Of a DNA stretch of 64,000 nt, positions 574 to 62,746 are shown piece by piece (the stretch's first letter is position 1; each line of letters begins with the position of its first letter). Source of the stretch: Blautia sp. BIOML-A1 (GTDB taxonomy: Bacteria; Bacillota; Clostridia; Lachnospirales; Lachnospiraceae); NCBI RefSeq assembly GCF_009883055.1, contig NZ_WWVR01000011.1, positions 6,054-70,053 of the forward strand, given 5' to 3'. The notes beneath the pieces were generated by a model. That model saw only the letters and a list, made by a program, of their open reading frames with translations, ran no database searches and was not told where the DNA came from. The position numbers were made by a program, and so were the translations under genes.

Positions 574-670
574 GTCTTCTTCTTTAAAATAAGCAAAAAC
601 TAATGTACGGAAACTTTACAGGAAAAATACCTTATGCTAAAATAACATTACTTTTAACAAAGCTTAGCAA

Positions 671-836
671 GAATTCTCCCTCATCTATAGGTGGTGAGAT
701 GAATTGCAAAAAAGAAAATGAACGGCAGTGGTGGGCGGAGAGAAATCGGTATCCCCCACTGACATGAGGCAAATCACAGTCAGCATGTTGCTGACATGTC
801 AGACTCTGTGAAATTACCGACTGTGAGTTGAAACAA
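671..836 (+). mobile_element. Orphan IS200/IS605-type right-end-like structured repeat, copy 1
   Basis: About 165 bp are nearly identical to 4470-4634. One frame encodes a tail ending ENERQWWAERNRYPPLT then stop, with no gene body upstream. The tail is followed by strong RNA structure: CAGTGG with CCACTG, GTCAGCA-TGT-TGCTGAC, and an outer CACAGTC / GACTGTG pair. The block ends GTGAGTTGAAACAA, where the two copies diverge abruptly. A TnpB C-terminus overlapping a structured scaffold that ends at the element boundary is the known anatomy of IS605-family ends with omega/reRNA. The assignment is inference; no tnpA or tnpB is present. The first hairpin (TCTCC...GAGA) is mutated here compared with copy 2. 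Confidence 0.55.
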
Positions 837-1080
837 TTTCTTAAACTGGTTGTATAAGAATATAGAATGATGTATAGTATTTGCGAGAGGCACCTTCTTT
901 CGTAAATGTTGCAATGTTTGTTTCGTCACTTTCATTATACAACACGAACGATTTAAGGTGTCTTTCTTTTTATGCAAAATCACGAACTTGCTCATTTATA
1001 GCATAAAAATTAAATAAGATATTGTATTTTGAAGAGAATTCTATTATTATGTTTATGTGAATTTAAAATGTGAATAAAAT
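837..1080. other. Intergenic region with no recognised gene
   Basis: This AT-rich stretch lies between the repeat and the kinase leader. The bases from 837 on would be the guide position if the preceding repeat is an omega-RNA scaffold. A long-range pairing GGCACCTT (about 888-895) with AAGGTGTC (about 955-962) is visible. A 71-codon antisense frame across 780-995 has no recognisable domain and runs into the repeat, so it is not called. Confidence 0.5.
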
Positions 1081-1156
1081 AATGCCTCAGATGTATTTGT
1101 ATAGACACGAAAAGAGATATTTTTCGGTCTTTATAAGTGTAGCTGAGGCATTTTCT
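1081..1156 (+). promoter_or_regulatory. Terminator-like leader hairpin ahead of the sensor kinase
   Basis: AATGCCTCAG (1081-1090) pairs perfectly with CTGAGGCATT (1143-1152) and is followed by TTCTTTTA. The 52-nt loop contains a nested CGAAAA / TTTTTCG hairpin. The structure ends about 20 bp before the kinase ribosome site, so it could attenuate transcription into the two-component operon. No known ligand-binding consensus was recognised. Confidence 0.6.
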
Positions 1157-1183
1157 TTTATAAAACTAGGGGGAAACAATCAA

Positions 1184-2965
1184 ATGAAGAAAAAATATCA
1201 TGAAATATCACTTGCAAAAAAATTCTCTTTTACAAGTATAATTATTATATTTTTTACAATTTTATCATTAACGATTTTGATTCGCGTAATATATGAAAAA
1301 TCGGTTTTGAATATTACAAGCGAAAGTTATAAAGAAAAATTTCAAATCATATCGGATAATAGCCAAAATGTTTTGGAAAATGCAGAGAAAATAGCGAAAG
1401 CTTTATTAACAGATGATGCGATTCAGAATTGGTTTTTGCTGGATTCAGAAGAGAATGCAGATCAGATAAAATACAAAATGCAAGTAGAAAGACGGTTGGA
1501 CTATCTGGATGCTTTGTATTCAGATAAAGAATATAGCAGTATTTCGCTGTTTGATTCATATGGACATATTGTGAATTCTAACAGTATTCGTTCAGAGTCG
1601 CAAAAATATGAAAAATTTTTCTCTTTGGTTAAAGAGAATTATAATGTTAAATGGATTGATTTGTATAACCAGTGTATTGAAGGATATGAAAAAAAAGGGA
1701 TTGGATACATAAGATATTACAGGGACTACGATACAGGTATTATAAAAGGGTATTTGATGATAGAATATCAGTCTCCGTTACTGATAAACAATTTTACCCA
1801 TATTAAAAACGGAGAGCAAGGTAAATATATAATTGCGGATTTGGAAGGAAATACAAAGATTGAAAATGATAAAGATATATTTGAAAATATCGGTGATAAA
1901 GATTATTTTAAATGGGCAATTACAAATCAAAAAGGTGGAAAAGTATTTAATATAGATGAGGAGCGGTATCTTGTTACGACTTCAGAGATCCCTACCCTAA
2001 ATTGGATAATGCTTGGCTTGACACCGGTCAGAGAATTAACCCGTGCAGGTAGAAATATTATACAAATCATATATATGGTCGGAATTATCGCAGTGTTGTT
2101 AAACATCATTTTTAGTCTGAGAGTTGCTTACAGTGTAACAAAACCATTAACAGAGCTGACTCGCACTATGTCGAGCTTTGGAAAAGGAAATCTGTCTGTA
2201 AAAGTACCAGTTTTGTATATGGATGAGATTGGTACTTTATCAGAGGCATTTAATAAAATGGCAGAAAAAATCCGACAATTGATAGAGCAGGTTTATCAGG
2301 AACAAAAGGCCAAAAGAAAACTTGAGTTGGCTGCATTACAGGCACAGATTAATCCACACTTTCTTTATAATACATTAAATAGTGTAAGCTCACTAATTCA
2401 AATGGAATGTCTGGATGATGCATTTGTAATGATACAGTCTATTGGCACTTTTTATAGAACGTCATTAAGCGATGGCAAAACCTTGATATCCATACAACAG
2501 GAAATGATTAATATTGAAAATTATATAAAAATACAAGAGTTCCGCTATGGTAATAAAATTATTTATAAAACTGATATAGAAGAAGAAATTCTGAAAGAAT
2601 GGATTGTAAAATTAACATTGCAGCCATTAGTGGAAAATGCAATTTATCATGGCGTAAAAGAAAAACGTGGACAGGGTATCATTGAAATAAAAGGGTGGAA
2701 AGAAAATAATAAAGTATATATCACAGTATCAGATAATGGAACAGGTATTCCCAAAGAAAAACTAATAGATCTGTTTAGTATGGATACAAGAGAAAAAGAA
2801 TCAGCATTTGGACTGTTTAATATTCAGCAAAGACTGCAGATTTATTTTGGAAAAGAATATGGACTTCATTTAGAAAGTAAGGAAGGACAGGGTACGATAG
2901 CAACAGTATGTTTGCCTGTAGGATTTAAGAAGGAGATTGAAAAAAATGAAAGCATTTCTGGTTGA
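1184..2965 (+). CDS. YesM-family sensor histidine kinase
   Basis: This 593-residue membrane sensor kinase phosphorylates the adjacent AraC-type regulator. It has a cytoplasmic N-terminus, a TM helix near residues 17-37, an extracellular Cache-like sensor to about 285, a second TM near 285-305 and a HAMP linker. The His_kinase core has phospho-acceptor H392 in INPHFLYNTL, an N box near 483 (LVENAIYHG) and a G box near 517 (DNGTGIP). ATG 1184 is chosen over an in-frame ATG at 1070 because AGGGGG lies just upstream and the longer version would run through the leader hairpin. It overlaps the regulator by 20 bp. The context points to sensing of a sugar imported by the downstream ABC system. Confidence 0.92.
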   Translation: MKKKYHEISLAKKFSFTSIIIIFFTILSLTILIRVIYEKSVLNITSESYKEKFQIISDNSQNVLENAEKIAKALLTDDAIQNWFLLDSEENADQIKYKMQVERRLDYLDALYSDKEYSSISLFDSYGHIVNSNSIRSESQKYEKFFSLVKENYNVKWIDLYNQCIEGYEKKGIGYIRYYRDYDTGIIKGYLMIEYQSPLLINNFTHIKNGEQGKYIIADLEGNTKIENDKDIFENIGDKDYFKWAITNQKGGKVFNIDEERYLVTTSEIPTLNWIMLGLTPVRELTRAGRNIIQIIYMVGIIAVLLNIIFSLRVAYSVTKPLTELTRTMSSFGKGNLSVKVPVLYMDEIGTLSEAFNKMAEKIRQLIEQVYQEQKAKRKLELAALQAQINPHFLYNTLNSVSSLIQMECLDDAFVMIQSIGTFYRTSLSDGKTLISIQQEMINIENYIKIQEFRYGNKIIYKTDIEEEILKEWIVKLTLQPLVENAIYHGVKEKRGQGIIEIKGWKENNKVYITVSDNGTGIPKEKLIDLFSMDTREKESAFGLFNIQQRLQIYFGKEYGLHLESKEGQGTIATVCLPVGFKKEIEKNESISG

Positions 2966-4565
2966 TGATGAGTTTCTCCAAAGAAAACTAGTTAAAAAAT
3001 CTGTTGATTGGCAGAGTATCGGTATAGAACTCTGTGGAGAAGCAGAGGATGGAGAAGAAGCACTGGAAAAGATATTTATGCTGAAACCGGATATATTGAT
3101 TATGGATATCAATATTCCTTATGTGAATGGTATTGAAGTGTCAAAAAAGGTAAAGAAAGTATTTCCGGAAACACAAGTGATTATTCTGAGTGCATATGGA
3201 GAATTTGAATATGCAAAAGAAGCGTTATCCTTTGGAGCATTAAGTTTCGTTCTGAAACCACTTAATCCGAAAGAACTGACCAGTGAGTTAATGAAATGTA
3301 AAGAAAAGATTCAAAAAATTCAACAACAGAAGCTCTCAGTAAAAAAAATGCAGGAAGCGATTACCCAGAATCAGAAAGAAAAAATCTTATTGGAACAGAT
3401 TTCGGGAATAAATATATATGAAGACTCAAATGAAATATGGAATCAGTTGGGCATCTCTACAAAAAAACAAATTGTGGTACTCATTGCCAGATTTCAAGGG
3501 GGAAATAATGATAAAAGAGTCTTTGAAATAGAAGAAATGATACAGGATTATTATCCGGAATATGAAATGATAATAATAAATCAAAGGTATACGTTTGTTT
3601 TGTTTGGAGAAGCAGATATGGCTTATAAAACTCAAATGCTCTGCACTTACTTACAAGAGGTGATGAACAAAAACAGAACGTGGAATGGTGGTATCAGCAG
3701 AGTTCATGATAACATTAGAGACCTGAAAAGTGCATATCGTGAGGCATACTCAGCAGCGCAGAAGGGAAAGAAAGATAATCGTCTGTTAATATATGAGCCC
3801 GTAGATATTGTGGAGATGCTGCAAACATTAGATTATGATCCATCTGTGTTTCTGTACTATCTCAGAAAAAATGAACATGAAATGTTATATAAAGAAATAG
3901 AAATAATGTTTGATCAAATGGAAGAAAAGAACAGTAGTCTTTATGTAGTACATTATGTGGTAATGGATCTTTTTATACATATTTCTTTTTTTATGTCGGA
4001 GGCAGGAGTTGATTTCTCATGTGTAATAAAAAAGGAACAGCAGGAATTGACAAGTTTGCAGAATAATGGAAGTATCAAAGAAATTAAAAAGACATTGTTG
4101 GACATTCTTGAAAAATGTTTTGGATGTATGAAAACCAGAAAGATTCCGGTGACACAAAGAAAAGTTCAAGATGCAATAGATTTTATAGATGACAATTTTT
4201 ATAAGAAAGATATGAGTTTGAATATGGTAGCTGGTGAAATCGGAGCAAATGCCAGTTATCTGAGTAGTATTTTTAAGAAAGAAAAAGGCTGTTCTTTAAG
4301 TAGATACCTTACTCAGGTACGCTTGGAACAGGCAAAGAAATATTTGATCGAATATCCAGATAAGACACTTATAGATATTTCTGAGTCGGTAGGATATAGT
4401 GATGTATATTATTTTAGTAAAAACTTTAAAAAGTACTATGGGATTTCTCCTTCAACAAGATATAACAAGGATTCTCCCACCTCTATAGGTGGTGAGATGA
4501 ATTGTAAACAAGAAAATGAACGGCAGTGGTGGGCGGAGAGAAATCGGTATCCCCCACTGACATGA
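2946..4565 (+). CDS. YesN-family response regulator (receiver + AraC HTH) with repeat-derived C-terminus
   Basis: The 539-residue regulator has a receiver domain at residues 1-120 (acidic pocket VDDE at 6-9, phospho-acceptor D54 in LIMDINIPY, conserved K near 105), a long central helical region, and a two-HTH AraC DNA-binding domain at about 405-505 ending GISPST. ATG 2946 follows AAGGAGATTG and is preferred to an in-frame TTG at 2937. The final ~30 codons lie inside the right-end-like repeat (4470-4634), which also supplies the stop codon. The AraC domain looks complete before the junction, so the protein is probably functional with a foreign tail. It likely activates the hydrolase/ABC genes downstream. 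Confidence 0.9.
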   Translation: MKAFLVDDEFLQRKLVKKSVDWQSIGIELCGEAEDGEEALEKIFMLKPDILIMDINIPYVNGIEVSKKVKKVFPETQVIILSAYGEFEYAKEALSFGALSFVLKPLNPKELTSELMKCKEKIQKIQQQKLSVKKMQEAITQNQKEKILLEQISGINIYEDSNEIWNQLGISTKKQIVVLIARFQGGNNDKRVFEIEEMIQDYYPEYEMIIINQRYTFVLFGEADMAYKTQMLCTYLQEVMNKNRTWNGGISRVHDNIRDLKSAYREAYSAAQKGKKDNRLLIYEPVDIVEMLQTLDYDPSVFLYYLRKNEHEMLYKEIEIMFDQMEEKNSSLYVVHYVVMDLFIHISFFMSEAGVDFSCVIKKEQQELTSLQNNGSIKEIKKTLLDILEKCFGCMKTRKIPVTQRKVQDAIDFIDDNFYKKDMSLNMVAGEIGANASYLSSIFKKEKGCSLSRYLTQVRLEQAKKYLIEYPDKTLIDISESVGYSDVYYFSKNFKKYYGISPSTRYNKDSPTSIGGEMNCKQENERQWWAERNRYPPLT

Positions 4566-4634
4566 GGCAAATCACAGTCAGCATGTTGCTGACATGTCAG
4601 ACTCTGTGAAATTACCGACTGTGAGTTGAAACAA
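4470..4634 (+). mobile_element. Orphan IS200/IS605-type right-end-like structured repeat, copy 2
   Basis: This is the second copy of the repeat at 671-836, in the same orientation and exactly 3798 bp downstream. It has the same TnpB-like tail frame (SIGGEMNCK...ERQWWAERNRYPPLT), the same three hairpins and the same GTGAGTTGAAACAA end, then divergent sequence starting AATATATGG. Here the 5' hairpin (TCTCcCACCT-CTAT-AGGTGgtGAGA) is intact. Weaker similarity reaches back to about 4451 (653 in copy 1). The tail frame is fused to the 3' end of the response-regulator gene. The omega-RNA interpretation is inference. Confidence 0.55.
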
Positions 4635-4758
4635 AATATATGGAAGAAAGAAAAAACTAAATATCTAAAATTTTTCCCACGCATCTAAAAATAGTACATT
4701 CACGAATTGCCATAAAAATGATAATCTTACCTCATCAAAAAACAGGAGGGGAAAGGAA

Positions 4759-21119: not shown

Positions 21120-21188
21120 GTAACTATTCAGAAGGGAGTATTCCGCGAGGCATTCTAACTCGTAACTGTGAGGGTACTGAACAGTTAC
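21120..21188 (+). repeat. Dispersed TIR hairpin element (69-bp form)
   Basis: It runs from GTAACTATTCA to TGAACAGTTAC with the internal hairpin GTAACTGT-gagggtactga-ACAGTTAC. It belongs to the same family as 23773-23940. Confidence 0.85.
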
Positions 21189-59036: not shown

Positions 59037-59194
59037 ATGACTATAAATGGGCTGAAATGAGAGTGGTAAAATGTGCAGATTACCGATAAATATGCGAATA
59101 TGAAATCAGCCAGTATGGATCTGCTCTGTCAGAAACCATAAAGAAACTGACAGAGGATTGAAAGAAAGAGTGTATATTAAGGAGGAAGTTCTGG

Positions 59195-61597: not shown

Positions 61598-62746
61598 ATG
61601 GAAAAGACAAAGATTGATATTATTTCCGGTTTTCTTGGAGCCGGTAAAACAACTCTGATCAAAAAACTCCTCAAGGATGCGTTTAAAGACGAGCAGGTTG
61701 TACTGATCGAGAATGAATTCGGAGAGATTGGAATCGACGGCGGATTTCTTAAAGAAGCGGGAATCCAGATCCGTGAAATGAATTCAGGATGTATCTGCTG
61801 CTCACTGGTAGGAGATTTTGGAGCATCTCTCAAAGAGGTGATCAGCAAATATCATCCGGACAGAATCCTGATCGAGCCATCCGGTGTCGGAAAACTTTCA
61901 GATGTTATCAAAGCAGTTCAGGGTGTTGAAGAAGAAACAGGTCTGGTACTTAACAGCTATACAACGGTTGTTGATGCAAAGAAATGTAAAATGTATATGA
62001 GAAACTTTGGTGAGTTCTTCAATAATCAGGTAGAATATGCCGGTGCGATTATCATGAGCCGTACAGATATTGTGGATGAGGCAAAAGCTCAGGCCGCAAT
62101 GGAACTTCTTCGTGAAATTAATCCAAAGGCAGCTATCATTACTACACCGATCGAAGAACTGGAGGGTGCAAAAATCCTGGAGGTTATGGAACATCCGGTA
62201 TCACTGGAGCAGGAAATGATGGAAGAAGAAGTATGCCCGGAATGTGGACATGTTCATGAACACGATCATCACCATCATGATCATGAGGAACATGAGCATC
62301 ATCATGACCATGAGTGTGGATGCGGCCATGACCATGAACACGAGGAGCATGAGCACCATCATCACGACCATGAGTGCGGATGCGGCCATGACCATGAACA
62401 CGAGGAGCATGAGCATCATCATCACGACCATGAGTGTGGATGTGGACATGATCATCACCATCATCATGCAGATGAGGTATTTACAAGCTGGGGACGCGAG
62501 ACAATTAAGAAATATACAAGAGAGAACCTTGAGAAAATTCTTGAGACTCTGTCAGAGACAGAAGAATATGGAGTTATTCTTCGTGCAAAGGGAATGCTTC
62601 CGGCAGAAGACGGAACATGGATCTATTTTGATATGGTTCCGGAAGAAACAGAGATCCGCGAGGGGGCACCGGAATATACAGGACGTCTCTGCGTGATCGG
62701 TTCAAAACTCAAAGAGGATAAACTGGCTGAGCTTTTTGGCCTGTAA
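61598..62746 (+). CDS. CobW/COG0523 G3E GTPase with His-rich metal-binding repeats
   Basis: The 382-residue P-loop GTPase has Walker A SGFLGAGKTTLIKKLL, the metal-site CxCC in NSGCICCSLVGDF, Walker B-like DRILIEPSG and a guanine motif SRTD. An internal His/Asp/Glu/Cys-rich insertion (62248-62470) is built from three near-identical 19-20-residue units of the type HDHECGCGHDHEHEEHEHHH. A C-terminal CobW_C domain follows. The family inserts or traffics Zn, Co or Ni. ATG 61598 is chosen since AAAGGA lies 12 bp upstream and the P-loop then sits at the N-terminus. Confidence 0.92.
   Translation: MEKTKIDIISGFLGAGKTTLIKKLLKDAFKDEQVVLIENEFGEIGIDGGFLKEAGIQIREMNSGCICCSLVGDFGASLKEVISKYHPDRILIEPSGVGKLSDVIKAVQGVEEETGLVLNSYTTVVDAKKCKMYMRNFGEFFNNQVEYAGAIIMSRTDIVDEAKAQAAMELLREINPKAAIITTPIEELEGAKILEVMEHPVSLEQEMMEEEVCPECGHVHEHDHHHHDHEEHEHHHDHECGCGHDHEHEEHEHHHHDHECGCGHDHEHEEHEHHHHDHECGCGHDHHHHHADEVFTSWGRETIKKYTRENLEKILETLSETEEYGVILRAKGMLPAEDGTWIYFDMVPEETEIREGAPEYTGRLCVIGSKLKEDKLAELFGL
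62285..62458 (+). repeat. 57-60-bp tandem repeat encoding His-rich units
   Basis: Three near-identical units (about 62285-62341, 62342-62401, 62402-62458) encode the metal-binding HDHECGCGHDHEHEEHEHHH-type segments. They are a likely site of copy-number change. Confidence 0.9.

Follow-up and report, generated by a model that had tools for sequence, protein, structure and literature searches.

Members of the IS200/IS605 family of insertion sequences insert 3′ of a fixed pentamer, without target duplication and with pairing between a guide and the target (PMC7290912, PMC8266576; these and the other papers below are cited from excerpts of their text). The palindrome-associated transposable element (PATE)-like element of Halanaerobium hydrogeniformans consists of IS605 ends only, and such elements are reported to be often moved by a trans-acting transposase (PMC7290912). 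In complete elements TnpB is linked to a guide RNA: the right-end element RNA (reRNA) of ISDra2 finishes in approximately 16 nucleotides (nt) derived from the flank, and its target-adjacent motif (TAM) equals the insertion target (PMC8612924), while IS607 TnpB pairs with a RAGATH-18 reRNA (PMC11061315). We describe here a gene-less mini-element of ~179 nt that is present in two copies in a 64,000-nt stretch of Blautia sp. BIOML-A1 (contig NZ_WWVR01000011.1, positions 6,054 to 70,053; this whole stretch is referred to below as the window), and that probably represents a PATE-like element in which an IS605 left end of the group with TTTAA(C) targets is joined to an unfamiliar, folded right half.

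The two copies (653–836 and 4451–4634) are direct repeats on the same strand, 3798 bp apart, and are identical at 173 of 184 positions, with a longest exact shared stretch of 125 nt. Their right 116 nt (721–836 versus 4519–4634) are identical, and all 11 mismatches of the 183-nt copy comparison are confined to the left 58 nt. A previous sequence-only reading of this DNA had reported two near-identical blocks in the same orientation at that spacing, which our comparison bears out, and had taken them for solo right ends of IS200/IS605 elements, each carrying the end of a TnpB gene and the scaffold of its guide RNA. Its right limits hold, since similarity between the copies breaks off abruptly past GTTGAAACAA at 836 and 4634; its left limits do not, as the element begins earlier, at 658 and 4456. 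Aligned copies start 3′ of TTYAA and finish at GAAACAA, and their flanks diverge beyond these points. On the basis of an empty site and of a restored response-regulator end (both described below), the elements in the window extend from 658 to 836 (after TTTAA) and from 4456 to 4634 (after TTCAA), ~179 nt each, with the AA at the right end assignable to either element or target. Each block is one complete, gene-less, non-autonomous element that has a left boundary as well as a right one.

Two insertions could be compared with empty sites. A site that the element occupies in a faecal contig (L002) has no insertion in a Fusicatenibacter genome (G001; GGTTTAA/TCCGCAG; GGTTTAATCCGCAG), with flanks that are identical over 374 of 374 and 447 of 449 nt. 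This presence and absence between near-identical flanks of close relatives, which also confirms the element-like boundaries proposed from the sequence, establishes that the insertion is recent. In the window, joining position 4455 to 4635 yields a response regulator that ends in SPSKYMEERKN and a stop codon, the last 20 residues being identical to those of a homologue (P0001, 90% identity overall). The two empty sites, TTTAA and TTCAA (the second deduced from the end of that protein homologue), place insertion 3′ of a fixed pentanucleotide, with no target duplication beyond the AA ambiguity, which leaves a duplication of 2 nt formally possible. A DDE-type miniature inverted-repeat transposable element (MITE), with terminal inverted repeats and a target duplication, is ruled out because TTYAA is already present in the empty site; for the same reason the apparent symmetry between TTYAAC and GTTGAA lies largely with the target.

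The left third of the element matches the left ends of complete IS200/IS605 elements that carry tnpA and tnpB. In a first nhmmer search the six best loci had E values of 1e-9 to 4e-7, and in a second the eight best had values of 1e-12 to 1e-7. Both top loci of the second search (L193 and L194) are located at contig ends that contain neither tnpA nor tnpB; three others (L196, 4e-12; L192, 1e-11; L197, 3e-9) combine the left-end match with both genes. The window's own copy, aligned by blastn, is 89% identical over 59 nt to the genome that is the source of L192 (G161) and 85% identical over 71 nt to the source of L193 and L194 (G301). The elements with a matching left end that were examined are located 3′ of TTTAAC; two Fusicatenibacter elements (L032 and L038) with a weaker match (E ~0.01) adjoin TTTATCC rather than TTTAAC. 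The left subterminal hairpin is present as in complete elements, and is missing in copies L020, L095, L110 and L111. The same left end also precedes TnpB-like ‘transposase’ genes in plasmids of Paenibacillaceae (L236–L238). In these three loci the TnpB-like gene is present and tnpA was not found, and L238 starts directly past the end of a NAD synthase gene. A further locus (L158) holds a truncated IS605 element, with a TTTTTAAC target and a TGTCAC end, that adjoins an apparent CRISPR array read as repeated open reading frames (ORFs).

These matches uphold the kinship with IS200/IS605 that had been proposed for the blocks, through both the left end and the TTYAA target, and at the same time reverse the assignment as a solo right end: the part that resembles IS605 is the left end, and the whole element is present. 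Among the options listed earlier, a PATE-like passenger agrees well with an element that has such a left end, a TTYAA target, evidence of mobility and no gene, and we believe that this assignment, extended by an unfamiliar folded right half, is probably correct. The mini-element would then move as single-stranded DNA, its left end being recognised by a Y1 TnpA supplied in trans, and its choice of target may depend in part on pairing of TTYAA with the element's own TTGAA. Insertion of copy 2 provided the response regulator with a new C-terminal tail.

Several observations weigh against the PATE-like assignment. IS605-type left ends near tnpA or tnpB were found in at least 7 of 21 genomes, and that of G001 is weak and lies beside TTTATCC. 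Complete elements have a subterminal hairpin and a GCAAGAA-type guide at both ends, and terminate on the right in a hairpin followed by TGTCAC, TTCAC or TTCAT, unlike GTTGAAACAA; neither the right subterminal hairpin nor a left-like guide was found in the right half of the mini-element, so a TnpA that needs matching ends might not process it. A subfamily in genome G247 has no left hairpin and displays one deletion junction at several sites (letter for letter in L095, L110 and L111, and with substitutions in L109), as if it had multiplied in that hairpin-less form. Genome G052 contains nine element matches (one of them weak), yet the only Y1 genes found there are three near-identical IS200-like copies. 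Finally, a search for the empty site of a complete TTTAAC-type element found none, so that complete elements and mini-element may not share one cut base. The IS200-like TnpA of G052 was considered as a partner and rejected, its ends being unrelated to those of the mini-element when compared by eye.

The unmatched right end, the hairpin-less G247 lineage and the want of a matching transposase in G052 would also be expected if the element were moved by other machinery, such as another type of HUH enzyme or a pathway based on RNA, and had captured its IS605 left end by fusion. We regard this as quite improbable: the left end is retained in most of the distant copies, the target is the TTTAA of the IS605 group, and the search around the copies, which covered tnpA and tnpB only, points to no other enzyme.

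The right half of the element is predicted to be structured. Copy 2 folds better than 199 of 200 shuffled sequences (z −3.0); its predicted fold starts with the left-end hairpin, continues with hairpin 2 and has a closing stem that encloses smaller hairpins, in keeping with the hairpins noted when the blocks were first read. A covariance model of the right half (R1) was built from 25 copies, and pairs were counted on an alignment of 49 distinct rows (A5). The 21 pairs are kept in 94.1% of cells, versus 89.4% in shuffled controls (which related sequences can exceed even without structure) and 36–44% when the pairing is slid, and 12 of the 21 are altered on both sides; A5 was fitted to the stems of R1, which favours helices 1 and 3 and not the pseudoknot. 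The proposed pseudoknot (TCGGTA with TACCGA) is kept in 94.9% of cells and rests mainly on conservation, because only one of its pairs has changed on both sides; in the subfamily of the window, the closing stem as predicted would need some of the same bases for its last two pairs. We read the right half as a covarying fold with a probable pseudoknot. An alignment of distant copies (A4) was dropped from these counts and replaced by A5, since its closing stem was judged to be misregistered by one column. A5 omits the short G247 copies (L079, L095, L108–L114), copies L078, L083–L087, L097, L103, L107, L115 and L116, the fragments L008, L021 and L023, and repeats of sites already included.

No family in Rfam matched the window or the block above its gathering score, and a chance match to sR17 was the only one up to an E value of 10. 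RAGATH-18, HEARO and the Rfam introns were likewise without a match in the window, and the element, at only ~179 nt, has no intron core. A translated tail had also been reported for the blocks. That of copy 2 is indeed read, as the C-terminus of the response-regulator ORF, but it does not represent a conserved protein: in a set of 25 copies of the ERQWWAERNRYPPLT tail, with 325 cells per codon position, 10 cells differ from the majority at position 1, 30 at position 2 and 28 at position 3, and stops interrupt the tail reading frame in some copies (L013, L017), observations that led us to reject selection on a protein tail. It is conceivable, though unlikely, that the right half, with its probable pseudoknot, founds a new class of structured RNAs that are mobile, has a target strand of its own (TTGAA:TTYAA) and works with a partner, serving as a guide RNA in trans or as an RNA or single-stranded DNA substrate and riding on IS605 left ends.

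We then compared the right half with the ends of TnpB genes. R1 gave nothing significant against 33 of the 36 first-fetched tnpA/tnpB loci and L007 (best E 1.7), nor against 60 further tnpA/tnpB loci, comprising 30 of 60 PF07282 matches and 30 of 35 PF01797 matches (best E 0.83). Coordinates were compared besides: of the 74 PF07282 matches across 21 genomes, the one closest to any R1 match is 1.9 kb away and the second closest 13.5 kb, and the closest is the tnpB of L095/L140, which has its own RAGATH-18 RNA. RAGATH-18 was found with the TnpBs of L057, L058 and L140, and other TnpBs that were examined have ends consisting of a hairpin and TGTCAC. The 80 loci with copies or fragments contain no tnpA and one tnpB (L095), in a count that holds some sites twice, covers flanks of varying length and uses a TnpA profile from nine TnpAs of these genomes. 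The 64-kb window has no tnpA- or tnpB-like ORF by home-made profiles (from seven TnpBs and nine TnpAs), in line with the lack of either gene nearby that had been observed before. The solo TnpB right end was rejected: no tnpB with this end exists among the examined loci, and the left end is also present. The case shows that a conserved fold resembling RNA, when found at an IS605-derived element, does not have to represent a guide RNA of TnpB.

The right half could nevertheless be a stand-alone guide of the omega RNA or reRNA kind, acting in trans; its guide would be the flanking sequence that follows CAA on the 3′ side, and TTYAA would serve as TAM. Its architecture would fit, with a probable pseudoknot, a constant 3′ end at the boundary and a motif 5′ of the empty site, as would the parallel with ISDra2, whose reRNA also has flank-derived 3′ nucleotides and a TAM equal to the insertion target (PMC8612924), and TnpBs (PF07282) are present in many host genomes (9 of 15 and 5 of 6 element-bearing genomes). 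We nonetheless consider this reading improbable. No tested tnpB locus finishes in the right half, and the TnpBs seen carry ends of their own, as described above. PF07282 is missing from six of the 15 element-bearing genomes, and PF01385 is without a match over its cut-off in the same six (G052, a single contig of 6,931,886 bases; G039; G344; G146 and G178, each with a single weak R1 match; and G219, with traces below the cut-off). Alignment of the putative guides to phages had been proposed as a check: the first 18 nt past each copy matched 10 and 13 stretches in viral contigs. All 23 lack TTYAA on their 5′ side and break off within the following 8 nt, so that chance is the simplest reading of these matches.

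When set beside the known systems, the mini-element resembles the Halanaerobium hydrogeniformans PATE in being short and gene-less with an IS605 left hairpin, and differs on the right side: the Halanaerobium element keeps the left and right ends of its resident IS605, with the final 58 nt of tnpB (PMC7290912), whereas the right half of the mini-element matches no tested IS605 right end. The IS200/IS605 group with TTTAAC targets in Lachnospiraceae and Paenibacillaceae (L192, L143, L033, L007 and L236–L238) shares the left end, the spacing to the target, a hairpin with a bulged T and the TTTAA(C) target, but its members contain tnpB, with or without tnpA, and end in a hairpin with TGTCAC, TTCAC or TTCAT, whereas the mini-element is gene-less and ends in GTTGAAACAA. 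The claim is accordingly that it works like IS605 and PATE elements; by membership it is neither a complete IS605 nor a strict PATE, because of the two IS605 ends that define the latter the left was found and the right was unmatched among the elements examined. HEARO and omega RNAs that stand alone are structured RNA elements inserted without a nuclease gene, with a guide side and a target unlike those of the mini-element. BOX and ERIC repeats are small, multi-copy, structured and presumed to be non-autonomous, and repetitive extragenic palindromes (REPs) are far shorter than the mini-element. IS607 TnpB with its RAGATH-18 reRNA is similar in that a structured RNA with pseudoknots forms the right-hand part of an element mobile in gut Firmicutes (PMC11061315), but RAGATH-18 adjoins TnpB and does not match the block in Rfam. 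REPs associated with TnpA-REP (PMC8266576) are also small, multi-copy, structured and presumed non-autonomous, but they carry a GTAG-type motif, whereas in the mini-element the two ends and the target are all fixed.

A published description of the element was not found in our literature search, though one may exist elsewhere, as most subscription journals were outside its coverage; the terms IS605, IS200 and PATE do not occur in a review of prokaryotic MITEs (PMC10969869). The parts are of a known kind, while neither their combination nor the fold of the right half was found in the libraries and literature searched. The positions of the features in the window are listed in Table 1.

Table 1. 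Positions in the window of the two mini-element copies, their parts and the genes beside them.
Feature	Position	Strand	Basis or remark
Insertion target of copy 1 (TTTTAA), flank outside the element	652–657	+	Cut position inferred from empty sites of two other insertions
Mini-element copy 1, ~179 nt	658–836	+	3′ end ambiguous by AA at 835–836
Left-end hairpin of copy 1, IS605-type, stem weakened by mismatches	676–698	+	Homologous to left ends of tnpA/tnpB elements
Right half of copy 1, conserved folded region (model R1)	721–836	+	145 bits with R1, whose training set included it; covariation
Hairpin 2 of copy 1 (CAGTGG-T-GGG ... CCCCCACTG)	726–761	+	Fold, covariation
TCGGTA, 5′ strand of proposed pseudoknot, copy 1	746–751	+	Pair count, helix 2
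TCACAG, 5′ strand of closing stem, copy 1	774–779	+	Pair count, helix 3
TACCGA, 3′ strand of proposed pseudoknot, copy 1	815–820	+	Pair count, helix 2
CTGTGA, 3′ strand of closing stem, copy 1	821–826	+	Pair count, helix 3
Conserved unpaired 3′ end GTTGAAACAA, copy 1	827–836	+	TTGAA complementary to TTYAA target (G-T for TTTAA), read directly
Histidine kinase (HAMP, His_kinase, HATPase_c); bystander gene flanked by the two copies	1184–2965	+	ORF, domains
Response regulator (Response_reg, AraC-type HTH), with 36 element-derived residues in place of its last 8	2946–4565	+	ORF, domains, restored end
TTCAA within the response-regulator gene, target of copy 2	4451–4455	+	End of homologue
Mini-element copy 2, ~179 nt	4456–4634	+	Copy comparison, restored gene end
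Left-end hairpin of copy 2	4474–4496	+	Match to left ends of complete elements
Right half of copy 2, identical to 721–836	4519–4634	+	R1, copy comparison

Copy 1 is intergenic and copy 2 disrupted the 3′ end of the response-regulator gene. The genes downstream of the two-component system encode a glycosyl-hydrolase-like protein and then a solute-binding protein, which suggests a usual sugar locus. Nothing ties the element to control of this locus, and the bracketing of the two-component system, which had been noted earlier, looks incidental because other genomes hold up to 23 scattered matches. In 50 of 57 copies the closest ORF upstream shares the strand of the element, and in 49 of 57 the closest one downstream does, by simple ORF calling without a genomic baseline; of the 58 copies entered, one had no ORF upstream and one had none downstream. 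Same-site repeats, fragments, weak matches and a few others (for example L027, L030 and the second L106 copy) were omitted. This sense bias, the position of several copies directly at stop codons and the conserved fold could suggest a cis-acting mRNA element of the BOX, ERIC or REP type, kept for the effect of its fold on host transcripts and only secondarily mobile. Such a role has a slim chance of being the explanation: the compared site is otherwise near-identical whether filled or empty, the insertion sites are in unrelated genes, and the bias could be explained equally well by single-strand transposition that favours one strand or by the overlap of TTTAA with stop codons.

The element family was found only in Lachnospiraceae in these scans. 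Of 397 genomes from the family to which G001 belongs (which we take to be Lachnospiraceae), R1 with strict filters matched 20, and in a sample of 398 genomes of the phylum it matched, with strict filters again, only G001 itself. A rescan of the 20 genomes gave matches in 19, with up to 23 per genome, the weakest of which may be due to chance because the threshold was an E value of 0.01. A 21-nt right-end pattern matched 23 stretches in a species-genome collection (Fusicatenibacter 12, Blautia 5, Anaerostipes 3, Hominifimenecus 2 and Lachnospiraceae bacterium 1). Matches by blastn included eight human-faecal records named ‘Bacteriophage sp.’, three of which cover at least 80% of the query; where ORFs were listed, these ‘phages’ look chromosomal. 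In one of these records the locus comes from a Fusicatenibacter chromosome and the insertion site is shared (L003 versus L012), so that some ‘Bacteriophage sp.’ records look like bacterial contigs. Scanning of viral contigs with the element patterns gave no copies, and plasmids gave none for the window copy; the search with L072 returned left-end matches only, which led to L236–L238.

The mini-element adds to the genomes of gut Lachnospiraceae a small, recently mobile element that is absent from the libraries searched and that alters the ends of genes, here that of a response regulator. If its fold has a partner enzyme, this would not be a TnpB detectable in several of the host genomes, and the partner could thus be found by pull-down.

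Other repeats were observed in the window. A weak R1 match (E 0.003) at 59062–59166, ending in GAGGATTGAAAGAA, is a possible decayed third copy of the element. A second small, palindromic repeat with the core AACTGTGAGGGTACTGAACAGTT (with small variations) occurs at 21164, 23916, 28390, 29742 and 57345, always on the + strand; four of its five copies belong to a 67-nt family, of which two lie clear of any ORF of 100 amino acids. An 18-bp tandem repeat at 1–180 encodes a PNPSEA-like spacer in an apparent surface protein with a C-terminus resembling a membrane anchor, and three repeats spaced by 60 nt at 62267–62460 encode a His/Asp-rich stretch, resembling a metal-binding region, within an ORF of 416 amino acids.

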